Source of the DNA: an uncultured Aureispira sp.
GTDB lineage: Bacteria; Bacteroidota; Bacteroidia; Chitinophagales; Saprospiraceae
Direction: 5' to 3'
Assembly: GCA_905480485.1 (NCBI GenBank)
Contig: CAJQQM010000139.1
Span: 1 to 39,563 of the forward strand
DNA: 39,563 nucleotides
A model generated the notes under the pieces. It was not told the origin of the DNA. It saw nothing but the letters and a program-made list of their open reading frames with translations, and did no database searches. This document shows positions 16,599 to 30,243 of the stretch, piece after piece. The translations under genes were made by a program, and so were the position numbers. Every line of letters begins with the position of its first letter. Positions within the stretch are counted from its first letter, which is position 1.

Positions 16599-18305
16599 AT
16601 GAATTTAAAAATTTCTACACTATTTGTTTTTTGTATCGCGCTTATTACGCATCATCAGATGCTTGCTCAACATAACTTTGAGCTTTACAACGACGGTGCG
16701 CTAGTACATGTTCAAGCTGGTGCTGAAGTCCACGTTTGGGGCGATGTTCACAACTACCAAGCTACTGGTGACCTTCAAAATAATGGTCTAATCAAAGTAC
16801 AGGGCAACATGTACTCCGATGCCCTCTTTCAACAGAGCGGTACCGGTACTACTCTCCTCGAAAACTCAGACGTCAACACAACCGAAAATCAGTTTATTAG
16901 TGGTAGTTATGCCGTAAGAACCGGAAACCCTTCCGACATAGGTGTCAATGATGGATCTTTCTACAATTTAGAATTGGCCAATTCCCAAGGCATAGTTTAC
17001 CTTGACAATACCGCTGCAGGGGCTAACCCACAATTTGTTGCCGACGTACGCAATTCTGTCAATTTTAATGCAGGTAGCGTGGTTAATAATTTGGTAACAG
17101 CAAATGTAGGCCTTAATGTTCCTACCTATCCTGCTAACGGCGCCGCCTATGACGCAGAGTTTGGTATGATGAATAACGCAGCAGGTCTTGGTAATTTTAT
17201 TGGGAATAATGCCTCATTGAACGGTAATATGTCGGCTACAGACCAAGGTTATGTAGTCGGTAAATTACGCCGCGCTATCAACGATGCAGTCGGCGGTATT
17301 TACCAATACCCTGTTGGTCTTGAACCTGCCGCAATTAATGCACAAAGAGGGTTTCAGTACATTCACTTGAACCTTGATGCTGGCGGAAATTACAATGTAA
17401 TCCGTTCTTACTTCCAAACAGGTTCTCCCAACAACGCAGCTGTTGCTACTGAATGTAGCGGATATCAAATGGATGATTTTTGGGGCAATCGGCATGGAGA
17501 ATGGGTATTTGATGATTTCACGGGTAGTGGCACTGGCAACTACGAAGTAAAAGTGTGGCCACAAGACCCAAGTGTTCCTTTCAACGGCACGGTGTGGACG
17601 ATTTCTAAAGATGATGTTTTTGAATATCCTGCGCCAGACCCATTGCATAATGACTGTGGACCAACGTCTGTTGGATTAGACAGAGGACCCTTTAATGGAT
17701 TTTCCGAATTTGGTCTAGTGTCTTCTGTTATTTTACTCGAAAGCGAAATTATCAACTTAGAGGCAAATGCCATCAACAACAAATTTATCAAGGTTGACTG
17801 GTCAACATCCAAAGAAGTAGATGTTGATCATTTTGTAATCGAACGCAGTACAGATGATGCTAACTTCTCGCCGATTACGACTCATACAGCAGTTGGTAAT
17901 AGCCTAATACCTCAAAATTATTTTATTGACGATTATGCCGTACTAGCAAACATAAACTACTACTACCGTGTCAAAGTGGTACATGTAGATGGAAGCGTAA
18001 AATACACCCATTCTGTTGTTGCTGCATTGGTCAATGACGGAAGTGTTGAAACTGTTAATCTATTCCCGAATCCAATTGCAGAAGGAGAGGCTACTATTGA
18101 AATAACTTCAACCACTGAAAACAGTACCTCCATCTTGGTCTACGACGCAATAGGACAGTTGATTTGTTCCAAAATTGTTGCCGTTCAGAAAGGATTGAAT
18201 ACATTTACAATAGATACCGACGATTGGCCATCTGCCGTTTATTATGTTCGAATTAGCAACGACAAGTCTTCAACAATCAAAGAATTAATTAAATCTGACA
18301 AATAA
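16599..18305 (+). CDS. T9SS type A sorting-domain surface protein
   Basis: A 568-residue exported protein. The signal peptide ends near residue 24 (LFVFCIALITHHQMLAQ). The N-terminal half (AEVHVWGDVHNYQATGDLQN and later NxGxF-type turns) is a beta-rich repetitive region often found at the start of Bacteroidota cargo proteins. At about 380-480 lies a fibronectin-like beta-sandwich, visible as KVDWSTSKEVDVDHFVIERS and YYYRVKVVHVDGS. Residues about 490-568 are a type A C-terminal sorting domain: LFPNPIAEGEATIEI, then VYDAIGQLI and VYYVRISND. Such domains direct passage through the type IX pore and are removed at the surface. A strong terminator follows. The ligand or role is unknown. Confidence 0.9.
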   Translation: MNLKISTLFVFCIALITHHQMLAQHNFELYNDGALVHVQAGAEVHVWGDVHNYQATGDLQNNGLIKVQGNMYSDALFQQSGTGTTLLENSDVNTTENQFISGSYAVRTGNPSDIGVNDGSFYNLELANSQGIVYLDNTAAGANPQFVADVRNSVNFNAGSVVNNLVTANVGLNVPTYPANGAAYDAEFGMMNNAAGLGNFIGNNASLNGNMSATDQGYVVGKLRRAINDAVGGIYQYPVGLEPAAINAQRGFQYIHLNLDAGGNYNVIRSYFQTGSPNNAAVATECSGYQMDDFWGNRHGEWVFDDFTGSGTGNYEVKVWPQDPSVPFNGTVWTISKDDVFEYPAPDPLHNDCGPTSVGLDRGPFNGFSEFGLVSSVILLESEIINLEANAINNKFIKVDWSTSKEVDVDHFVIERSTDDANFSPITTHTAVGNSLIPQNYFIDDYAVLANINYYYRVKVVHVDGSVKYTHSVVAALVNDGSVETVNLFPNPIAEGEATIEITSTTENSTSILVYDAIGQLICSKIVAVQKGLNTFTIDTDDWPSAVYYVRISNDKSSTIKELIKSDK

Positions 18306-18556: not shown

Positions 18557-19072
18557 ATGAAAAAAGCAGGACTTATTTGGGGTTCAGACACAGGAATGAC
18601 CGAAGAAATTGTCACGGTACTTGTTGACCTTATTGGTACAAAAAACATAGATTCTTACAATGTTTTTGATGGGCAAGTCGCCCTTTTTGCTCAATATGAC
18701 CGACTTATATTGGGCTTGTCTACATGGTATGATGGCGAATTACAAAGTGACTGGGATGAATTTTTTGAGCAATTTAAGCTGATTGATTTCACTGGCAAAA
18801 AAATTGCCATTTTTGGCTTGGGCGACCAAGAAGGCTATGCTGAATATTTTGTTGATGGCATTGGAATCATAGGAGAAGTTGTGGTTGAGAATGGGGGGCA
18901 GCTTTTGGGAAAATGGAAAACGGACGGATATCAATACGAGGCAAGTAAGGGAGAATTCGATGCAGGTTTTTTTGCAGGCTTGGCTATTGATGAAGATAAT
19001 CAGCCCGAATTGACCGATGAACGCCTAGAACAATGGATACATCTTTTAGAAAAAGAAGGATTTTGGGATTAA
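18557..19072 (+). CDS. fldA: Flavodoxin (long-chain)
   Basis: A 171-residue FMN protein that shuttles single electrons in place of ferredoxin. The phosphate-binding loop is GSDTGMTEEI (residues 9-18), the flavodoxin form GSxTGxTE. LGLSTWYDGELQSDW corresponds to the first isoalloxazine loop with its tryptophan. GLGDQEGYAEYFVDGIG is the second flavin loop with the aromatic residue Y87/Y90 region and the extra insertion of long-chain flavodoxins. It is cytoplasmic, with no signal peptide. It starts a tight run with the reductase 12 bp downstream and hscB 12 bp after that. This points to NADPH-reduced flavodoxin acting in Fe-S or biosynthetic electron transfer. Flavodoxin is often induced by iron limitation, but I could not identify an operator. 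Confidence 0.95.
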   Translation: MKKAGLIWGSDTGMTEEIVTVLVDLIGTKNIDSYNVFDGQVALFAQYDRLILGLSTWYDGELQSDWDEFFEQFKLIDFTGKKIAIFGLGDQEGYAEYFVDGIGIIGEVVVENGGQLLGKWKTDGYQYEASKGEFDAGFFAGLAIDEDNQPELTDERLEQWIHLLEKEGFWD

Positions 19073-19084
19073 AAATAAAATAAA

Positions 19085-20089
19085 ATGATTGAAACAGATA
19101 TAATTATTATTGGGGCCGGCCCTTGCGGTTTGTTTACTGTCTTTGAAGCAGGCTTACTCAAACTTAAGTGCCACTTAGTAGATTCTTTGCCGCAAGCAGG
19201 AGGTCAATTGACAGAAATCTACCCCAAAAAACCTATCTACGATATTCCTGGATTTCCTGACATATTAGCAGGCGACCTGGTAAAAAATTTAATGGAGCAA
19301 ATTGCCCCCTTCAAACCTGGATTTACGCTCGGTGAACGTGCAGAAAGTATCGAGCAACTCGACGATCAACGGTTCCGACTAACAACCAACAAAGGTACGG
19401 TTCATGTAGCACCTGTAATCGCTATCGCTGGCGGACTAGGCTGTTTCGAACCCCGAAAACCGCCGATCGGTAATATTGCGGATTTTGAAGATGCAGGGGT
19501 AGAATATATCATCAAAGAACCTGAACTTTATCGCGACAAAAAGATTGTGATTGCCGGAGGTGGTGATTCAGCTTTAGATTGGGCTATTTTCCTTTCAGAT
19601 GTTGCTTCAGAGGTAACGATGGTGCATCGTAGAAAAGGTTTTCGTGGAGCCTTAGATTCTGTTGAAAAAGTAGAACAATTGGCCGAAGAAGGTAAAATTA
19701 ATCTTATTACCGAAGCACAAGTAACTGGACTAAACGGCAAGACAGCATTGGAAGAGGTAATCATAAAACACAAACATAAAGGAACGTTTACCCAAGTGAC
19801 TGATCATTTTATCCCCCTCTTTGGACTAAGCCCTAAATTGGGTCCAATATCAGACTGGGGACTCAATATCAGCCGATCCGCAATTGAAGTAAACACAGAA
19901 GACTATGGCACCAACATACCTGGCATCTATGCTATTGGTGATATCAATACCTATCCCGGCAAATTAAAATTAATTCTTTGTGGTTTTCACGAAGGAACGC
20001 TCATGGTACAATCGGCTTTCAAACATATTTTCCCCGACAAAAAAGTACAATTTAAGTATACCACTGTTAATGGTGTAAACGGCTTTTAA
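19085..20089 (+). CDS. Ferredoxin/flavodoxin-NADP+ reductase, thioredoxin-reductase-like type
   Basis: A 334-residue FAD enzyme of the type found in Bacillus YumC and green sulfur bacteria. It exchanges electrons between NADPH and ferredoxin or flavodoxin. The FAD dinucleotide fold starts at IIGAGPCGL (8-16). A second nucleotide-binding motif is AGGGDSALDW (157-166). The arginines of HRRKGFR (181-187) match the 2'-phosphate site that favours NADPH. YAIGDINTYPGKLK is the C-terminal flavin-contacting motif. The CxxC redox pair of true thioredoxin reductases is absent, which argues for the reductase assignment. It directly follows flavodoxin, its likely partner. HscB follows closely. Confidence 0.93.
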   Translation: MIETDIIIIGAGPCGLFTVFEAGLLKLKCHLVDSLPQAGGQLTEIYPKKPIYDIPGFPDILAGDLVKNLMEQIAPFKPGFTLGERAESIEQLDDQRFRLTTNKGTVHVAPVIAIAGGLGCFEPRKPPIGNIADFEDAGVEYIIKEPELYRDKKIVIAGGGDSALDWAIFLSDVASEVTMVHRRKGFRGALDSVEKVEQLAEEGKINLITEAQVTGLNGKTALEEVIIKHKHKGTFTQVTDHFIPLFGLSPKLGPISDWGLNISRSAIEVNTEDYGTNIPGIYAIGDINTYPGKLKLILCGFHEGTLMVQSAFKHIFPDKKVQFKYTTVNGVNGF

Positions 20090-20101
20090 AACAATCTATA
20101 G

Positions 20102-20626
20102 ATGAATTACTTCGAATTCTACAAACTTCCGGTTCATTACAAAATAGACCAAAAAAATTTACGCCGTCTATTCTTACAAAAAAGTAAAGAATTTCATCCC
20201 GATTACCATGGAATGGATTCTAAATTAGACCAAGCTGCCGTACTAGAAAAATCGAGTTTTAACAATGAGGCCTATAAGGTACTGAAAGAAGACTTAAGTA
20301 GACTCAAATATATATTAGAGTTAAACCATCTGATTGGTGAGAAAAGCAACAATAATTTACCACAGACATTTTTGATGGAAATGATGGATATCAATGAACA
20401 GGTGATGGATTTGCAGTTTGATTATAATGCCCAACAACATCAGCTGCTGCTTGATGCTATTAGCCTGAAAGAGGCGGATTTTAGAAAGAATGCGGGGAAG
20501 GCCCTCCAAAATTTCCATGAAGATACAAGCAGTTCGGAAGATTTGAAGATAATGTTGGAATTCTATCTAAAAAACCGATATATAAGACGCCTGCGAAAAA
20601 ACACGGAAAAATTGAATCAAGGTTAA
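20102..20626 (+). CDS. hscB: Fe-S cluster co-chaperone HscB
   Basis: A 174-residue J-domain protein that delivers the scaffold protein IscU to its Hsp70 partner and stimulates ATP hydrolysis during Fe-S cluster transfer. The J domain is at about residues 3-75, with the HPD motif at 32-34 (KEFHPDYHG). HscB hallmarks include FEFYKLPVHYKIDQKNLRR at the start and the segment after the J domain (DLSRLKYILEL, LPQTFLMEMMDINEQVMD), which in HscB leads into the three-helix IscU-binding domain. It is cytoplasmic. It is placed after flavodoxin and its reductase, 12 bp from the latter, so co-transcription is likely. No iscU, iscS or hscA is visible in the window. Confidence 0.93.
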   Translation: MNYFEFYKLPVHYKIDQKNLRRLFLQKSKEFHPDYHGMDSKLDQAAVLEKSSFNNEAYKVLKEDLSRLKYILELNHLIGEKSNNNLPQTFLMEMMDINEQVMDLQFDYNAQQHQLLLDAISLKEADFRKNAGKALQNFHEDTSSSEDLKIMLEFYLKNRYIRRLRKNTEKLNQG

Positions 20627-21189: not shown

Positions 21190-21255
21190 GTCCACTATTA
21201 ATTAAGTAAATCGATCAATTTTCATCAATAAAATCTTGTTGCTTTGGGAACAAAA

Positions 21256-23955
21256 ATGCGCGTTGGAATTTTTTTTGGAGGTAAATCCAGGGAACGTGAA
21301 ATTTCTTTTGCGGGAGGACGTACAGTGTATGACAACTTAGACAAAGGGTTATTTGAAGCTATTCCTATTTTTATTGATAGTTTGGGCCAATTTATATTGT
21401 TAGACTGGCAATATCTTTACAAAGGAACTATCCGGGATTTTTACCCATCTAGCGATTTCGTTCCCAAAAGTAAACATCAGTTTCAGGTATACATAGAAAG
21501 TCTTGCTAAACTAAATGTGGCTCAAAAGACAGCTATTGCAAAATCTGTGGGGACAAAAATCGAGCTGCAACAACTCAATGAATACATCGACTTTGCGTTC
21601 TTGGCCCTTCACGGCAACCTTGGAGAAGATGGCCAAATTCAAGGCTTACTCGAATGTTTAAATATCCCCTATTCAGGGTCAGGAATCAGGGCAAGCAGCA
21701 TTGGTATGGATAAATTTTATCAAAAGAAACTAATGGAATCTGCTGGCTTTGATATGCCAAAAATGCTAAGTATTCGTCGTTCTGACTGGATGAAAGGCAT
21801 TGCAAAAAACAAAATAGACGATTTTGTCGAATTCCTAGGTCTTCCTTTGGTGATTCGACCAGCTAATCAAGGTTCGTCTATTGGAGTCAGTATAATTCAT
21901 CAAACCAAAAATATTGCTGCAGCTATCAATGCCGCTTTTTTTGTAGAGAATATACAAGCTGAGTGCTGGAATTCGAAATCGGAGCATGATAAAATTGAAT
22001 ATTTACGAAATCTAACCGATATCCGAACAGGCATAGGATTTCCGATGCAATCGCCGCAATTTAGCGAAGTTATTTACCATCCTGACCAACTTTTAGATCA
22101 AATTGAAAACTACTTCAACAACGGCAACAAACTTCTTAGCTTAGAAGGCCATCAATCTGAACATACTGTTGTACTAGAAGCTTTTATCGAAGGACGTGAA
22201 TTTTCATGTGTTGTTATTCGAGGCGACGAAAAGCAATCGATAGCGCTCCCCCCTACAGAAATCGTTAAAGGTAATGAAGTATTTGATTACCGTTCGAAGT
22301 ATCTGCCCGGCTTGTCTAGAAAATTAACTCCAATTGACATAGAGGTAGGTAAGATAGAAGCTATTCGTAAAGCTTGCGAAACACTTTACGATTTTTTAGG
22401 CTTTAATACCTATGCTAGAATTGATGGTTTTATCCATGCTGAGGGTCAGATTTTCCTGAATGACCCTAATACCACCTCGGGAATGCTTCCTTCTTCTTTT
22501 TTCTTTCATCAAGCTGCTGAAATCGGACTAAATCCCTCTCAATTTTTGAGTTACATTATTCGGACATCACTGGTTGAACGCATTGAATATTCGACAGAAA
22601 TTGGGCTATATGAAGGCCTATTAGCTCGACTTGATACAGCACTTGAAAAAAGAAACGCTGCCAATTCTGGTAAACAAAAAATTGCGGTTCTCTTAGGAGG
22701 GTACTCCTCCGAAAGGCATATATCTGTGGAGAGTGGGAGAAATATATATGAGAAACTAGCTAGTTCAGACAAATACGAACCCTTGCCGATTTTTGTTGAT
22801 GGCAATCATGCGGAACATCATCTTTATCAAATCCCTATCCACCTGCTCTTAAAAGACAATGCAGACGACATTAGGGATAAATTAATCAACTACCATCAGC
22901 ATGGGATTATCAAAAAAATCCAAAAAGAATGCCGTTCGATTGTTCAACGATTTACAGGAAAAAACCCTGTTTTCAAACCAGCTAAAATCAGCTACTCTAC
23001 ACTAAAAGAACAAATAGATAGCGTATTTATAGCATTACATGGACGTCCAGGAGAAGATGGTGAAGTACAATCAAAGCTAGAATCTTTGAAAATTCCATAT
23101 AATGGCTCAGATTCTAGCTCAGCTCAAATTACCATCAACAAATATCAGACTCTTCAAAAATTAAAAAAAGAAGGTATGCCCACCACTCAACAGCTGTTGG
23201 TGCACAAATCTGATTTTTTGGCTGACAAAGAAAAATCTATTCAAATCATAGAAAACAACATTCAATACCCACTTATTGCTAAGCCTGTGGATGACGGCTG
23301 TAGTTCGGCAGTTAAAAAAATAAAGAATGGAAGTGACTTGAGGGCTTATCTATTGGCGCTGTTTAGAGAAAACACAATAGTTGATGAAGTCAACCGCCTT
23401 CAGCTAGGCCTTCAATACAAAGAAGAATTCCCCATCAAAAAAGCAGCATTGATAGAAGCTTTAATTGACAAAAAAGATGCGGTTCACTTTCTTGAAATCA
23501 CGGGAGGTTTGCTCACAAAATATAATTCGGAAGGAAAGATAGAGTATGAAATCTTTGAACCCTCAGAAGCACTATCATCAGGAGAGGTTTTGTCGCTTGA
23601 AGAGAAATTTTTGGCTGGCGAAGGTCAAAATATTACTCCTGCACGTTATACCGTTGCAGAAATAGAAGCCGACTATACACATATTGCTCAGCAAGTTAAA
23701 GCAAGTCTTAAAAAAGCCGCAAAGACATTGAATGTTACAGGATATGCACGAATTGATGCCTTTGTAAGGGTCTTTAAGGACGGCCGTGCCGATACCATCA
23801 TAATAGAAGTTAACGCACTCCCAGGTATGACCCCTGCAACTTGTATTTTTCATCAATGTGCTCTAAACAATTACAAACCTTATGATTTTATAGATCACAT
23901 ATTAGAGTTTGGCCAAAAAAGAAATAATTTACTGCTTCAGTCAAGCAAGCAATAA
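21256..23955 (+). CDS. ddl: Tandem fusion of two D-alanine-D-alanine ligase (Ddl) domains
   Basis: One 899-residue chain made of two ATP-grasp Ddl domains, at about 1-450 and 474-890. Single Ddl enzymes have 300-360 residues and join two D-Ala for peptidoglycan. First half: GGKSREREISF, FLALHGNLGEDG, MDKFYQKK, LVIRPANQGSSIG, YRSKYL, YARIDGF and FLNDPNTTSGM. Second half: GGYSSERHIS, IALHGRPGEDG, INKYQ, IAKPVDDGCSSAV, EEKFL, YARIDAF and IEVNALPGM. Against E. coli DdlB numbering, half one shows K144R and E270D with altered PGM. Half two keeps both but has a changed glycine-rich loop and Y216F. I prefer ATG 21256 because MRVGIFFGG is the normal Ddl start; a TTG four codons earlier is less likely. 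The PASTA gene follows 26 bp on. Whether both halves are active is unknown. Confidence 0.93.
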   Translation: MRVGIFFGGKSREREISFAGGRTVYDNLDKGLFEAIPIFIDSLGQFILLDWQYLYKGTIRDFYPSSDFVPKSKHQFQVYIESLAKLNVAQKTAIAKSVGTKIELQQLNEYIDFAFLALHGNLGEDGQIQGLLECLNIPYSGSGIRASSIGMDKFYQKKLMESAGFDMPKMLSIRRSDWMKGIAKNKIDDFVEFLGLPLVIRPANQGSSIGVSIIHQTKNIAAAINAAFFVENIQAECWNSKSEHDKIEYLRNLTDIRTGIGFPMQSPQFSEVIYHPDQLLDQIENYFNNGNKLLSLEGHQSEHTVVLEAFIEGREFSCVVIRGDEKQSIALPPTEIVKGNEVFDYRSKYLPGLSRKLTPIDIEVGKIEAIRKACETLYDFLGFNTYARIDGFIHAEGQIFLNDPNTTSGMLPSSFFFHQAAEIGLNPSQFLSYIIRTSLVERIEYSTEIGLYEGLLARLDTALEKRNAANSGKQKIAVLLGGYSSERHISVESGRNIYEKLASSDKYEPLPIFVDGNHAEHHLYQIPIHLLLKDNADDIRDKLINYHQHGIIKKIQKECRSIVQRFTGKNPVFKPAKISYSTLKEQIDSVFIALHGRPGEDGEVQSKLESLKIPYNGSDSSSAQITINKYQTLQKLKKEGMPTTQQLLVHKSDFLADKEKSIQIIENNIQYPLIAKPVDDGCSSAVKKIKNGSDLRAYLLALFRENTIVDEVNRLQLGLQYKEEFPIKKAALIEALIDKKDAVHFLEITGGLLTKYNSEGKIEYEIFEPSEALSSGEVLSLEEKFLAGEGQNITPARYTVAEIEADYTHIAQQVKASLKKAAKTLNVTGYARIDAFVRVFKDGRADTIIIEVNALPGMTPATCIFHQCALNNYKPYDFIDHILEFGQKRNNLLLQSSKQ

Positions 23956-23981
23956 ACTAGCATTATTTAAAATAATTGATC

Positions 23982-24863
23982 ATGCAAAAAATAAAGGTGT
24001 TTTTTAAAGATTTATGGTTTATCAAAAAATCAATATTAATTAATCTCGGAGGTATTACCCTACTGAGTATCGTATTGGTTAAACTTTTGATGTGGTCACT
24101 AAACTACTACACCTTACACAATGAATCTATTGAGACCCCTGACCTAGTAAACTTAAAAGTAGAAGAGGCAATAAAACTCCTAGAAGCTCGAAAACTAAAC
24201 TATATCGTTGTTGATTCTATTTGTAGAGGTAAAGGATTAGGGGGAGTGATCAAACACCAAAACCCGAGACCTACAAAACAGGTTAAAGAAAGTCGAAAAA
24301 TATACTTAACTATTACAAGTTATGCAGAATGCACCGTCAACTTATACTATGACCGCCTTATCGGAAGAGACAGAAGTTATGTGGTGCGATACCTTGAAAG
24401 AAGTAACCTGAAGGTTGGTAAGCTTACCTATAAAAATGGCGGAAAGGCTAAAAATACGGTCGTAGAAGCTTTCTGCAACGGTGCCCCACTATTCATTGAG
24501 GCGAATGCCAGATCAGGAGAAAAACCGCCAACAGAACCTAAAAAAGTGAAACAAAATGCAGTAATTGACCTTGTCTTGCTGAAGGGAGAGGGTGCAAATC
24601 CTAAATTTATACCCGATTTGATGTGCGACAATTATGATGCTGCAGAATTCACCATAAAGACCAGTCAATTCAACCTCGGTACAATCAACACGAGTGGTCC
24701 TATCACCGACACCCTTTCGGCATGGATTTACAACCAAAATCCCGCACCAGGAGAAATTGCATCAATGGGAAGAGGCATCGATTTGTGGTTGGTTCAGGAA
24801 TTCCCTGAAGCCTGCAAAGAAACCGATGAAATAAAGAATATCCCAGAAAAGATTCAACAATAG
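23982..24863 (+). CDS. Membrane-anchored PASTA-domain protein
   Basis: A 293-residue inner-membrane protein with a short cytoplasmic N-terminus, one transmembrane segment (about residues 18-38, INLGGITLLSIVLVKLLM) and three extracytoplasmic PASTA domains. The first begins at ETPDLVNLKVEEAIKLLE. The second is more divergent and contains VVRYLERSNLKVGKLTY. The third begins KFIPDLMCDNYDAAEF and ends with the QNPAPGE motif. PASTA domains bind or sense peptidoglycan in other bacteria. There is no kinase domain. The neighbouring upstream Ddl fits a known Bacteroidota association of PASTA proteins with ddl. I chose ATG 23982; a TTG two codons earlier is an alternative. The gene stops 1 bp before the opposing stop codon of the next gene. 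Confidence 0.9.
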   Translation: MQKIKVFFKDLWFIKKSILINLGGITLLSIVLVKLLMWSLNYYTLHNESIETPDLVNLKVEEAIKLLEARKLNYIVVDSICRGKGLGGVIKHQNPRPTKQVKESRKIYLTITSYAECTVNLYYDRLIGRDRSYVVRYLERSNLKVGKLTYKNGGKAKNTVVEAFCNGAPLFIEANARSGEKPPTEPKKVKQNAVIDLVLLKGEGANPKFIPDLMCDNYDAAEFTIKTSQFNLGTINTSGPITDTLSAWIYNQNPAPGEIASMGRGIDLWLVQEFPEACKETDEIKNIPEKIQQ

Positions 24864-25402: not shown

Positions 25403-26758
25403 ATGTGTTCTAAAAATTTACAATTCTGGCTTCTATTTTTGTTGTCTTGTTTATCAATTCAGCATCTAAATGCACAATGTTCGGCCTGTACGATTATAGT
25501 TAGCGGACAGGACAACAACAACTATGTCATTGGGCCAACCGAAAAACTATGCATTCTTTCTACCGGCGTCTATAAAGGAACAACACTTGAACTCGATGGA
25601 GGAGAAATGTGTAATATGGGTATTGCCCGACCCAAGATTATGATTATAACCGAAGGTATCATCAACAATAGTGGTTCGATTACAACTGGTCAGCTACACA
25701 TGAAAAACACCAATTCCATCATCAATAATCAAGGAACAATTAACGTCCGTATGCTTTTCTTAATGACGGGTGGTGTTGTAAACAACAACAACACCATAAA
25801 TATTACAAACACATTTGATTTTGATGGGGATATGTTTTACAACCACGGCACACTAAAAGTACAGAACAGTATTCGTGTAAATGCATTGATGGATAACTCC
25901 CCTACAGGTTATATTGAAGTAGGCGCTTCCATGACCATAAATACACCTGGAATCTTGAAAAATAGTAGTTGTGTAAAAGTAACGAATGACTTTACCAACA
26001 ACTCTGTTGTTGAGGGGGCTGTTAGCGGATGCGGAAGTTTTGAGACAAATGGTATTAGCAGAAATTTAGGCATTTTTGGACAAGTGGGCAATATTGATTT
26101 TTGCGACAACGGAGCTCCTTTGGGTGGCTTTGATCAAATTTCGGGCTTGGTAGGTCCAGCGGTCACACATTGCACCTGTGGAACTGGACCCTGTTTCAAA
26201 ACAGGTTCTTTTTTCCCTGTCGAACTTACGCATTTTAATATAATGACCACCAAACAACGCACAAATATCCTTAATTGGCAAACTTCTTCAGAGACGAATA
26301 ACGATTACTTTACGGTTGAACGCAGTTCTGATGCTATTCATTTTGACCCTGTAAGTCAACTTCAAGGCGCAGGCACCACAACAGAAGTACAAAATTATAC
26401 TTGGACGGACAACAACTGTTTGTCTGGCACTAGCTACTACAGACTAAAACAAACAGACTTTGATGGAAGCTTTACGTATTCAGAAATCAAGTCGGTTTAT
26501 CTTGAACCAATTGCAGAACCAATCGTATTTCCTAACCCTACTGACGGAATCTTACACATTGCTTTGGCGAATAAAAACCAGGAAAAGGCTATGGTACGGG
26601 TATACGACGAACTTGGCAACTGTATCAAAAGTATCAGGAGCAATGAAAATAATTTGAAAATTGATTTGAGCGACTATCCGGCTGGTATTTATTTTACCCA
26701 AATCGTATCGGAGGAAGATGGACACAATTTAATTTATAAAAAAATAATAAAACGCTAA
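25403..26758 (+). CDS. T9SS type A cargo with Asn/Gly-rich beta-solenoid
   Basis: A 451-residue exported protein. The signal peptide (FWLLFLLSCLSIQHLNA) ends near residue 24. Residues about 75-220 consist of short repeats with N-N-x-G/T turns (GIINNSGSITTG, SIINNQGTINV, GVVNNNNTINI, FYNHGTLKV, SVVEGAVSGCG), a pattern expected of a parallel beta-solenoid. At about 265-360 is a fibronectin-like domain (NILNWQTSSETNNDYFTVER, SYYRLKQTDFDGS). Residues about 372-451 are the type A sorting domain, with FPNPTDGILHI, VRVYDELGN and YPAGIYFTQI. The domain order resembles the cargo at 16599-18305, with which it shares the region before the sorting domain. It has its own terminator. The role is unknown; surface adhesion or structure is a guess. 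Confidence 0.9.
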   Translation: MCSKNLQFWLLFLLSCLSIQHLNAQCSACTIIVSGQDNNNYVIGPTEKLCILSTGVYKGTTLELDGGEMCNMGIARPKIMIITEGIINNSGSITTGQLHMKNTNSIINNQGTINVRMLFLMTGGVVNNNNTINITNTFDFDGDMFYNHGTLKVQNSIRVNALMDNSPTGYIEVGASMTINTPGILKNSSCVKVTNDFTNNSVVEGAVSGCGSFETNGISRNLGIFGQVGNIDFCDNGAPLGGFDQISGLVGPAVTHCTCGTGPCFKTGSFFPVELTHFNIMTTKQRTNILNWQTSSETNNDYFTVERSSDAIHFDPVSQLQGAGTTTEVQNYTWTDNNCLSGTSYYRLKQTDFDGSFTYSEIKSVYLEPIAEPIVFPNPTDGILHIALANKNQEKAMVRVYDELGNCIKSIRSNENNLKIDLSDYPAGIYFTQIVSEEDGHNLIYKKIIKR

Positions 26759-28626: not shown

Positions 28627-30243
28627 ATGAAATTAGTTATACCAAACTCGAACTACTGCTTGGTAGGTCTTCTACTTAGTTTAGGCCTTACTTTGTATGC
28701 ACAAGGGCCTATTGAGCCACAAAAGCAGCTCGGTTGGATTGTCATGCTCGACAGCAAATCCAATAATTGGTTAGAGAACAAGCGTATCAAGCCCTTGATT
28801 AAATCGATAAAAAGTATTTCTATTTCGCTTAATGTCTATTTAATTGAAAGCGAAGCCACTAACGAACTTTACGAAACACTAAGGAAGGACTCAAGCGTGT
28901 TATTCATTCAAAAAGATGCTGAAATTAGTTGGCGGAGTCAGCCAAATGATCCGCTATTTGAATCTCAATGGGCCTTAGATAGTATCGATGCAGCACTAGC
29001 TTGGGAATATACTACTGGAGGACTTAGTAACGATGGTGATACCATTGTTTGTGGCGTTATTGATGGTTCTTTCGACGTACAGCATGAAGATTTGAAGGAT
29101 AACATTTGGCACAATCACGCAGAAATACCCAACAATGCTATTGATGATGATATGAATGGTTTTGTAGACGATTATACAGGCTGGCAACTGGTCTTTGATA
29201 ATGATCAACACAACTATGGAAACCTAAGCAACCACGGCACCTCTATTTTGGGAATCATTGGCGCTAAGGGCAACAATGGTGTGGGTATAAGTGGATTAAA
29301 CCAACAAATCAAACTACTTTTGTTAAGTGCGCATACTGGCAATGAGATTACAAAGCTTTCTAATATTATTGAAGGTTTTTCGTACTTGTATGACATGCGA
29401 AAAAACTATAATGAAAGTAATGGTCAATCAGGGGCCTTTGTCGTATCGGTAAATGGTTCTTGGGGCATCAATCAAGCCAAAGCATCCGACCACCCTATTT
29501 GGTGTGCCTTATACGACAGCTTGGGTTCTGTGGGTATTTTGAGTATTGCTGCTACCACCAATAACGATGAAAATATCGATATTTTTGGTGATATGCCTTG
29601 TACCTGCCCCTCTCCTTTTTTGATAAGTACAGGAGAAAGTACTCGTTCAGATGGAATTGACGGAGGCTATGGTTCGGTCCACCTCGATTTGTTTGCCCCT
29701 TCGGCTAGCAAAACAACCCGATGGCTTAATAATTATGGAGACTTCGGAGGAACTTCAGGTGCAGCCCCTCACTTGAGTGCTGCAGTTGCACTGCTTTATA
29801 GTTATCCGCACAAAGCCTGGATGTCTATGTGCAAACAAAATCCATCCAAAGCTGCAAGCTTAATCAAACAAATCTTATTAGGAAGTGTAGACAAAAAAAT
29901 CAGTTTTGAAAAATCTGTATCGAAAGGACGTCTAAACGTGGGTAAGGCTATGCAACAGCTTGCTGAATATTTTATGGTCCCTGACCAAGCGCAAATATTA
30001 GGCTTTTATCCCAATCCGGTTGAGGATATCCTTACGCTTAAAATAGCGCTTGAAGAGGCCGGAACACACGAATTGCTACTTTTCGATCAAAGTGGCCGCC
30101 TTGTCAAAACGATAGATATCATTACCGAAGCTCCATCTATACGCTACAGCAATCTTGATTTATCCGAACTTGCAAAAGGGTTTTATATACTTCAATTCAA
30201 AAGCAATCAAGGACTTCAAAGTGTCAAATTAATAAAAAGATAG
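28627..30243 (+). CDS. Secreted subtilisin-like serine peptidase with T9SS type A domain
   Basis: A 538-residue S8-family peptidase. The signal peptide ends near residue 26 (LLLSLGLTLYAQ). A prodomain-like segment runs to about 105. The catalytic domain shows Asp146 (VIDGSFDVQHEDL), His203 (NHGTSILGIIGA) and Ser377 (GGTSGAAPHLSAA). The oxyanion Asn is probably N312 in AATTNND. The Asp motif is DGSFD where most subtilases have DTGID or DSGID, and the Asn motif lacks the usual AGN glycine; otherwise the triad is intact. Residues about 460-538 form the sorting domain (GFYPNPVEDILTL, LLLFDQSGRLV, AKGFYILQF), so the enzyme is expected at the cell surface or outside. It is convergent with the ABC-F gene, 10 bp apart, with no visible terminator between. 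Confidence 0.92.
   Translation: MKLVIPNSNYCLVGLLLSLGLTLYAQGPIEPQKQLGWIVMLDSKSNNWLENKRIKPLIKSIKSISISLNVYLIESEATNELYETLRKDSSVLFIQKDAEISWRSQPNDPLFESQWALDSIDAALAWEYTTGGLSNDGDTIVCGVIDGSFDVQHEDLKDNIWHNHAEIPNNAIDDDMNGFVDDYTGWQLVFDNDQHNYGNLSNHGTSILGIIGAKGNNGVGISGLNQQIKLLLLSAHTGNEITKLSNIIEGFSYLYDMRKNYNESNGQSGAFVVSVNGSWGINQAKASDHPIWCALYDSLGSVGILSIAATTNNDENIDIFGDMPCTCPSPFLISTGESTRSDGIDGGYGSVHLDLFAPSASKTTRWLNNYGDFGGTSGAAPHLSAAVALLYSYPHKAWMSMCKQNPSKAASLIKQILLGSVDKKISFEKSVSKGRLNVGKAMQQLAEYFMVPDQAQILGFYPNPVEDILTLKIALEEAGTHELLLFDQSGRLVKTIDIITEAPSIRYSNLDLSELAKGFYILQFKSNQGLQSVKLIKR

Follow-up and report, generated by a model that had tools for sequence, protein, structure and literature searches.

Why would a bacterium carry its D-alanine-D-alanine ligase (Ddl) as two unlike copies in one polypeptide? 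The enzyme, which D-cycloserine targets, is essential and is regarded as a homodimer. The question is raised by contig CAJQQM010000139.1 of an uncultured Aureispira sp. (assembly GCA_905480485.1; the whole stretch analysed, 39,563 nucleotides, is called the window below), in which one open reading frame (ORF) of 899 aa codes for two complete Ddl units, here half 1 and half 2 (Table 1). No other Ddl was found in the genome that carries this double Ddl. Both of its sites are invariant at the key positions in intact relatives, and the double is decayed in genomes that also have a conventional Ddl. In some lineages the halves are separate genes, in others half 1 is left with a stub of half 2, and most doubles have a PASTA domain protein beside them or fused to them. 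Our preferred reading, to which these sequence comparisons lead us to give a probability of roughly 0.6, is an asymmetric, heterodimer-like Ddl in which half 1 would join D-Ala to D-Ala and half 2 would act as a partner site, the chain forming a PASTA-linked pseudo-dimer.

Two Ddl units in one chain

A Pfam search finds two Dala_Dala_lig_N and four Dala_Dala_lig_C stretches in the ORF, with scores well inside the Ddl family (175.6 bits for PF01820 against a cut-off of 34.6, and 187 bits for PF07478 against 24), and both halves have their own domains, as an earlier sequence-only reading of this DNA had proposed in describing two full Ddl domains fused in frame. Against TIGR01205 (cut-off 245.65 bits) the whole protein reaches 369.7 bits, and its best single stretch in the genome search 150.7 bits, under the cut-off. 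The double belongs to the Ddl family but has a new arrangement, two units in a single chain instead of one. It shares with the homodimeric enzymes DdlA and DdlB (EC 6.3.2.4) both Pfam domains, the fold, nearly all catalytic residues apart from the departures given below and the status of only Ddl found in the cell, but differs from them in having two non-identical copies per chain, with S150C/Y216F in half 2 and D270 in half 1, and in its PASTA link. MurC-Ddl fusions (NF011171) also have a Ddl joined to another large domain, but here this other domain is a second Ddl, and the protein scores 167.2 bits where the cut-off is 1015. Among the best 25 of the 39 NCBIfam families matched, there was no model for a double Ddl. 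The sequence-only reading had allowed that the fusion might be a widespread and already characterised form. It is indeed widespread in parts of Bacteroidota, but among the papers listed in our searches of the open literature we found neither a description nor a characterisation of it; in the available part of PMC4814524, “tandem” refers to alanines or methods and not to Ddl domains. It had also allowed for an assembly or sequencing error joining two genes. This we consider excluded for practical purposes, since the same architecture recurs in many independent assemblies, including those of named Hymenobacter and Pontibacter isolates.

Catalytic positions are given in the numbering of Escherichia coli DdlB, with the accepted roles of E15, S150 and Y216. 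Half 1 retains E15, K97, S150 (S207 of the chain), Y216 (Y349), R255, D257, N272 and S281, and departs at K144 (R201), E270 (D403) and P275 (S408). Half 2 retains K144, E270, N272, the PGM turn and the metal and ATP ligands that were checked, and departs, among other places, at S150 (C682), G153 (A685), Y216 (F785) and S281 (T862). All the departures listed by the sequence-only reading for each half are present in the alignment to DdlB, and S281T, which it had not listed, has to be added. Its observation that the halves leave the canon at different places extends to the relatives: the signatures E270D/P275S of half 1 and S150C/Y216F/S281T of half 2 are identical in 66/66 intact doubles. In an alignment of 87 double loci, made before one more (L119) was added, D at the 270 place of half 1 and C at the S150 place of half 2 are each found in 84, and the D also in 49/49 half-1-only loci read (see below). 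Residue 144 of half 1 is R in 39 of the 87 and K in 48.

These counts change the picture of half 1 as a catalytically compromised copy. That defect was overstated, as residue 144 varies between R and K, and D270 occurs even where half 1 is the sole Ddl found. Its PGM turn, which had been called broken, has lost the proline alone; G276 is retained, and N272 and S281 are unchanged. Similarly, the long insertions noted before the ALHG motif of both halves are long with respect to E. coli DdlB, but DdlA-type enzymes presumably have a longer stretch there too (compare the full-length structural matches of half 1 below).

The AlphaFold2 model of the chain, based on an alignment of 39 doubles, has a pLDDT of 86.3, with values below 50 at residues 341-351 and 773-792, and a pTM of 0.87, which says only that the relative placement of the halves is predicted confidently. 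Model residues 1-450 match DdlA 3q1k (Z 39.4), and DdlA 3i12 is also a full-length structural match. Model residues 473-897 match LmDdl2 (1ehi) across the whole length (Z 38.2, 21% identity), the best result for this stretch among the matches listed, tied with 3tqt (Z 37.4). The halves probably pack like the known Ddl dimer.

In pairwise comparisons of the 66 intact doubles half 1 is on average 57% identical and half 2 58%, with 93/466 and 88/419 invariant columns, respectively. Half 2 is as conserved as half 1 and hence not a decaying copy, and given this invariance it is unlikely to be a dead pseudoenzyme. In a quick tree with long branches, half 1 groups with the truncated forms (SH-aLRT 99), half 2 has a clade of its own (100), and conventional Ddl forms one side of a weakly supported branch (49). 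In the main, named genera are grouped alike by both halves (Hymenobacteraceae, Aureispira), which fits one fusion followed by joint inheritance. It could be argued that the fusion is an ordinary duplication in which both halves make D-Ala-D-Ala without any divided labour, and most catalytic residues are indeed retained in both. That each half has kept its own signature in every intact double makes this explanation unlikely in our view.

The sole Ddl found in its genome, and the decay of doubles beside a conventional one

The source genome (G000) is 96.1% complete. Another ddl in it, which the sequence-only reading had advised looking for, was not found by the PF07478 profile search and ORF reading: the other PF07478 matches fall, to judge from their ORFs, in three biotin-dependent carboxylases and one cyanophycin-synthetase-like protein, and both TIGR01205 matches of the genome, among those listed, fall inside the double-Ddl ORF. 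A MurF over its cut-off is present, which would add the D-Ala-D-Ala made by the double to the peptidoglycan precursor. There are in fact two MurF-like genes, L269 (G000:C242:4260-5252) and L270, one over the cut-off (on C40) and the other cut by a contig end; the latter may be of the MurF-Alr type known from Bacteroidota.

Full-length relatives are usually 44-67% identical to the double, falling to 33% in decayed copies. The genome searches covered Bacteroidota, and 59 double loci, some of them interrupted by contig ends, were retrieved from Saprospiraceae, Aureispira, Hymenobacter, Pontibacter, Adhaeribacter, Sporocytophaga and others. By protein search doubles occur in 35/60 genomes (source genome and fragments counted), and in the order to which G129 belongs, covered by 146 genomes, they are common. 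When 296 genomes were drawn evenly from the phylum, at least 4 had a double (G000, G014, G129, G223) and at least 2 the shortened form (G246, G305). Parts of Bacteroidota, including cultured Hymenobacter and Pontibacter, thus appear to rely on an unequal Ddl pair. In the family of the source organism (n = 120) a conventional Ddl over the cut-off was found in 57 genomes; Ddl of neither kind was found in five (G017, G425, G461, G481 and G488), each at least 90% complete. A plasmid-borne double did not emerge from the best 10 of 560 matching plasmid records, the top one being a Bernardetia plasmid whose match, at 30.7% identity, lies within 1.6 kb and so could not hold a double. One genome, G437, has a second, partial double (L200, G437:C311:3500-6744), 35% identical and with DGCSAGI and EKFQGGTGVNITP. 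It lies next to a recombinase-like ORF, the contig being 6.7 kb long; it is perhaps a contaminant, and perhaps a hint that doubles occur elsewhere.

We read 13 key positions per half in 74 doubles, leaving out those that are fragmented or frameshifted (G034, G042, G046, G471, G473, G476, G484 and G497); the positions and their accepted letters follow the sites of DdlB and the signature of the family itself, and the window sequence therefore fits by construction. Both halves have 13/13 in 66/66 genomes where no conventional Ddl was found (50 checked by TIGR01205 and 16 by protein search alone). In genomes with a conventional Ddl, both halves of the double have lost residues in 8/8 cases, half 1 keeping 1-9 and half 2 keeping 0-11 of the 13. 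Fisher's test of decay against the presence of a conventional Ddl gives p 7e-11, with rows that are related by descent. A tree of the PASTA part, which is silent on the direction of change, has at least three changes forced by well-supported branches, and placing all decayed proteins in one clade is rejected (p-AU 3e-5). The pattern indicates that both sites of the double are under selection. Among the 50 genomes checked by TIGR01205, three (G448, G450 and G500) have a third, weaker match under the cut-off, in G500 in an ORF of 644 aa; ORFs of about 645 aa with such a match lie at G500:C41:12394-13197 and G219:C3:146072-146968.

The decayed proteins retain their PASTA part, and half 2 is gone from one of them, which suggests that the chain has a role beyond catalysis. 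Three highly degenerate Ddl-PASTA membrane proteins (L197, L198 and L199, in G434, G449 and G470), with frames of 803, 1041 and 1157 aa and one of them without half 2, are kept alongside a conventional Ddl, as a cytoplasmic pseudo-Ddl on a PASTA protein.

Relatives with separate or shortened halves

That the halves can exist as separate genes is illustrated by family f86 (Amoebophilaceae, as we guess), with 21 genomes of 0.7-2.7 Mb. Six of them have the fused protein and 12 have two separate genes; in 1 half 2 alone was found, and in 2, of which one is 66% complete, neither half. The split pairs lie on the same contig, at least 86 kb apart, in 5/12 (G531, G595, G603, G626 and G629) and on different contigs in 7/12. 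All 13 positions are kept by 10 of the 12 split half 1 genes and 12/13 by the other 2. Of the stand-alone half 2 genes, the 12 that were read (from 11 split genomes and G575) keep 12/13 positions, the change being G to A at 857, which is also found in 4/6 fused members of the family. F785, invariant in the 66 intact doubles, is kept in 12/12 of them, and C682 in 10, with S in the other 2. Such reduced genomes retain both half genes, which argues that both are used, in trans.

A different solution is found in family f29 (our guess is Spirosomataceae), with exactly one match per genome in 61/61, in an open frame of 555-677 aa. Half 1 is complete, its 13 positions kept, in 32/32 f29 loci read (31 genomes). 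In the 10 f29 loci aligned half 2 ends after an N-terminal-like stretch in which the GGxSxER motif is degraded, a remnant that speaks for loss from a full double. No single TIGR01205 match over the cut-off exists in any f29 genome, the shortened protein included. In families f70 and f72, 17 loci look like the f29 form, and across the half-1-only loci of the three families (49 loci in 48 genomes) D270, S150, Y216, R255, D257 and N272 are kept in 49/49. Position 275 is P in all 49, S in 66/66 intact doubles and A, V or S in the 12 split half 1 genes; all this may go back to one event. We reject a dead, regulatory half 1 as the general case, with half 1 and a cut-off half 2 being the only match in 61/61 f29 genomes, and these truncated lineages support half 1 as the probable site of D-Ala-D-Ala formation. 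At least 7/61 f29 genomes have an extra Ddl-like ATP-grasp ORF of 314-337 aa; the 2 of the 7 that were read (L195 in G397 and L196 in G380, ca. 330 aa) have no GGxSxE or GSSxG motif and were discarded as further Ddl.

The second site and its PASTA partner

The PASTA frame of the window starts 20 bases past the stop codon of the double. A PASTA domain is present in the locus, or fused behind half 2, in 81/88 double loci, that is, in 79/85 distinct ones after allowing for three near-identical pairs (L015/L039, L020/L042 and L037/L121), and at least two of the misses have short flanks. Presence in the locus on any strand was required, and the strands differ in one case (L232). The same domain is near 4/30 conventional Ddl loci, 7 of these 30 (L131, L132, L133, L237, L240, L242 and L244) being from genomes whose decayed double has a PASTA part, and near 0/22 half-1-only loci; somewhere in the genome it occurs in 61/61 f29 genomes. 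Like the PASTA Ser/Thr kinases (NF033483, PknB/Stk1), the downstream protein has one membrane helix, as read from its sequence, and a PASTA domain (50.1 bits), but it lacks a kinase, stays far under the cut-off of 450, and in some relatives has the double Ddl as its cytoplasmic part. Adjacent or fused, this membrane protein probably ties the chain to the cell wall, to judge from the gene linkage.

This linkage speaks for a purely regulatory half 2, which would bind ATP and either D-Ala or D-Ala-D-Ala but not ligate productively, and would relay the wall state sensed by PASTA to half 1. The domain is fused behind half 2 in 15/66 intact doubles, it accompanies most doubles and no half-1-only gene, and the persistence of decayed Ddl-PASTA proteins beside a conventional Ddl implies a role other than catalysis. 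We hold this explanation to be a less likely one. Against it, invariance at the metal and ATP residues is just as strict in half 2 as in half 1, probably stricter than a domain that only binds would usually need.

The altered residues of half 2 suggest a different alternative, a second ligase of changed specificity that would make D-Ala-D-lactate, or a dipeptide with another second residue, and so give two precursor ends. DdlB mutants at S150 and Y216 reportedly gain the use of D-lactate. Both residues presumably also help to hold the closed loop, and the S150C/Y216F change could simply slow the site; we know of no precedent for S150C combined with S281T. F785 stands at what we take to be the place of F261 in D-Ala:D-Lac ligases of the LmDdl2 type, and we assume the Y216 place to be the deciding position in the Ddl of lactic acid bacteria as well. 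In these, one active-site residue separates depsipeptide (F) from dipeptide (Y) ligases, as given in the available part of PMC5996685, and by this rule half 2 is of the F type. The conservation of F785 in intact doubles and stand-alone genes, the retained ligands of metal and ATP, and the whole-length match to 1ehi, which among those listed shares first place with 3tqt, favour the idea. However, half 2 differs from the LmDdl2 type in its low identity, in having S150C in addition and in being carried beside a Y-type half. The protein stays under the cut-offs of the D-Ala:D-Lac ligase families (146.8 bits for the VanA type NF012217, cut-off 775; 197.9 bits for NF000206, cut-off 550). Half 2 can also be lost, as in f29, and we find a second ligase of this kind doubtful. 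Its most elaborate version, a natural hetero-Ddl with half 1 making D-Ala-D-Ala and the S150C/Y216F half 2 making D-Ala-D-X, the two precursor ends being tuned by the attached PASTA wall sensor, we regard as unlikely. If it were true, one chain would determine two sorts of precursor end in a large set of Gram-negative Bacteroidota.

We return to the asymmetric Ddl, in which two paralogous subunits, identical protomers in an ordinary Ddl, would have diverged while being carried in one chain. Half 1 would be the dipeptide-forming site. Half 2, which keeps the residues for ATP, metal and the first D-Ala together with S150C/Y216F, would be a partner whose nucleotide site is live and which modifies, or adds to, what half 1 makes; this partner role is supported by the decay beside a conventional Ddl, the fission and the constraint data. 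Half 2 is best described as a second, conserved site with a conjectural chemistry, and we infer a division of labour that may lie in chemistry, regulation or substrate.

Several observations weigh against this. The catalytic domain of half 2 can be lost, as the stub-bearing lineages show, and with their P275 half 1 may have needed a change, or reliance on half 2 may have arisen in the half 1 of doubles. In f86, a genome of 0.7 Mb, G575, shows only half 2 (L290, G575:C1:85760-87019, with DGSSYG and EKFL), which does not fit half 1 as the main ligase unless the assembly is incomplete or Ddl is not needed, and in one split genome (G630) half 2 is in pieces. The comparison of decayed and intact doubles has a confounder: PASTA fusions make up 8/8 of the decayed and 15/66 of the intact ones, so that the fusion may be what survives replacement, with unfused doubles simply disappearing. 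Neighbours of doubles and one conventional locus (L137) were the source of the PASTA profile, which is biased toward doubles. Finally, half 2 is on a long branch in the quick tree, which allows no conclusion on its kinship to half 1. Even so, with relatives in which the protein is split, truncated, decayed or fused to PASTA, it becomes directly testable why Ddl should be a dimer, and whether one of its protomers can specialise.

Table 1. Features of the window, with the double Ddl and its parts first and the neighbouring genes last.
Feature	Position	Strand	Basis or remark
Double-Ddl ORF, 899 aa	21256-23955	+	ATG at 21256, stop codon ends at 23955
Half 1, residues 1-445, complete Ddl fold	21256..22590	+	Pfam, residue alignment, match to DdlA 3q1k
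Stretch particular to half 1, ca. 74 residues (228-301)	21937..22158	+	skipped by both PDB Ddl alignments shown, which end at 227 and resume at 302
D403 of half 1, at the place of metal ligand E270	22462..22464	+	residue alignment
Linker, residues 446-472, mostly helix at 449-468	22591..22671	+	predicted structure
Half 2, residues 473-891, complete Ddl fold, altered substrate-site residues	22672..23928	+	Pfam, alignment, match to LmDdl2 (1ehi)
DGCSSAV loop of half 2, residues 680-686, C682 replacing S150	23293..23313	+	residue alignment
F785 (EKFL) of half 2, at the place of Y216	23608..23610	+	residue alignment
PASTA protein downstream of the double Ddl, one N-terminal membrane helix (sequence reading)	23976..24863	+	PF03793 at residues 53-113
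Flavodoxin, thioredoxin-reductase-like flavoprotein and HscB-like co-chaperone, in a row upstream of the Ddl gene	18557-20626		
Three proteins, one of them a subtilase, each with a C-terminal sorting domain of the type IX secretion system	16599-18305, 25403-26758, 28627-30243		

An in-frame TTG is found at 21244, upstream of the ATG of the double-Ddl ORF.

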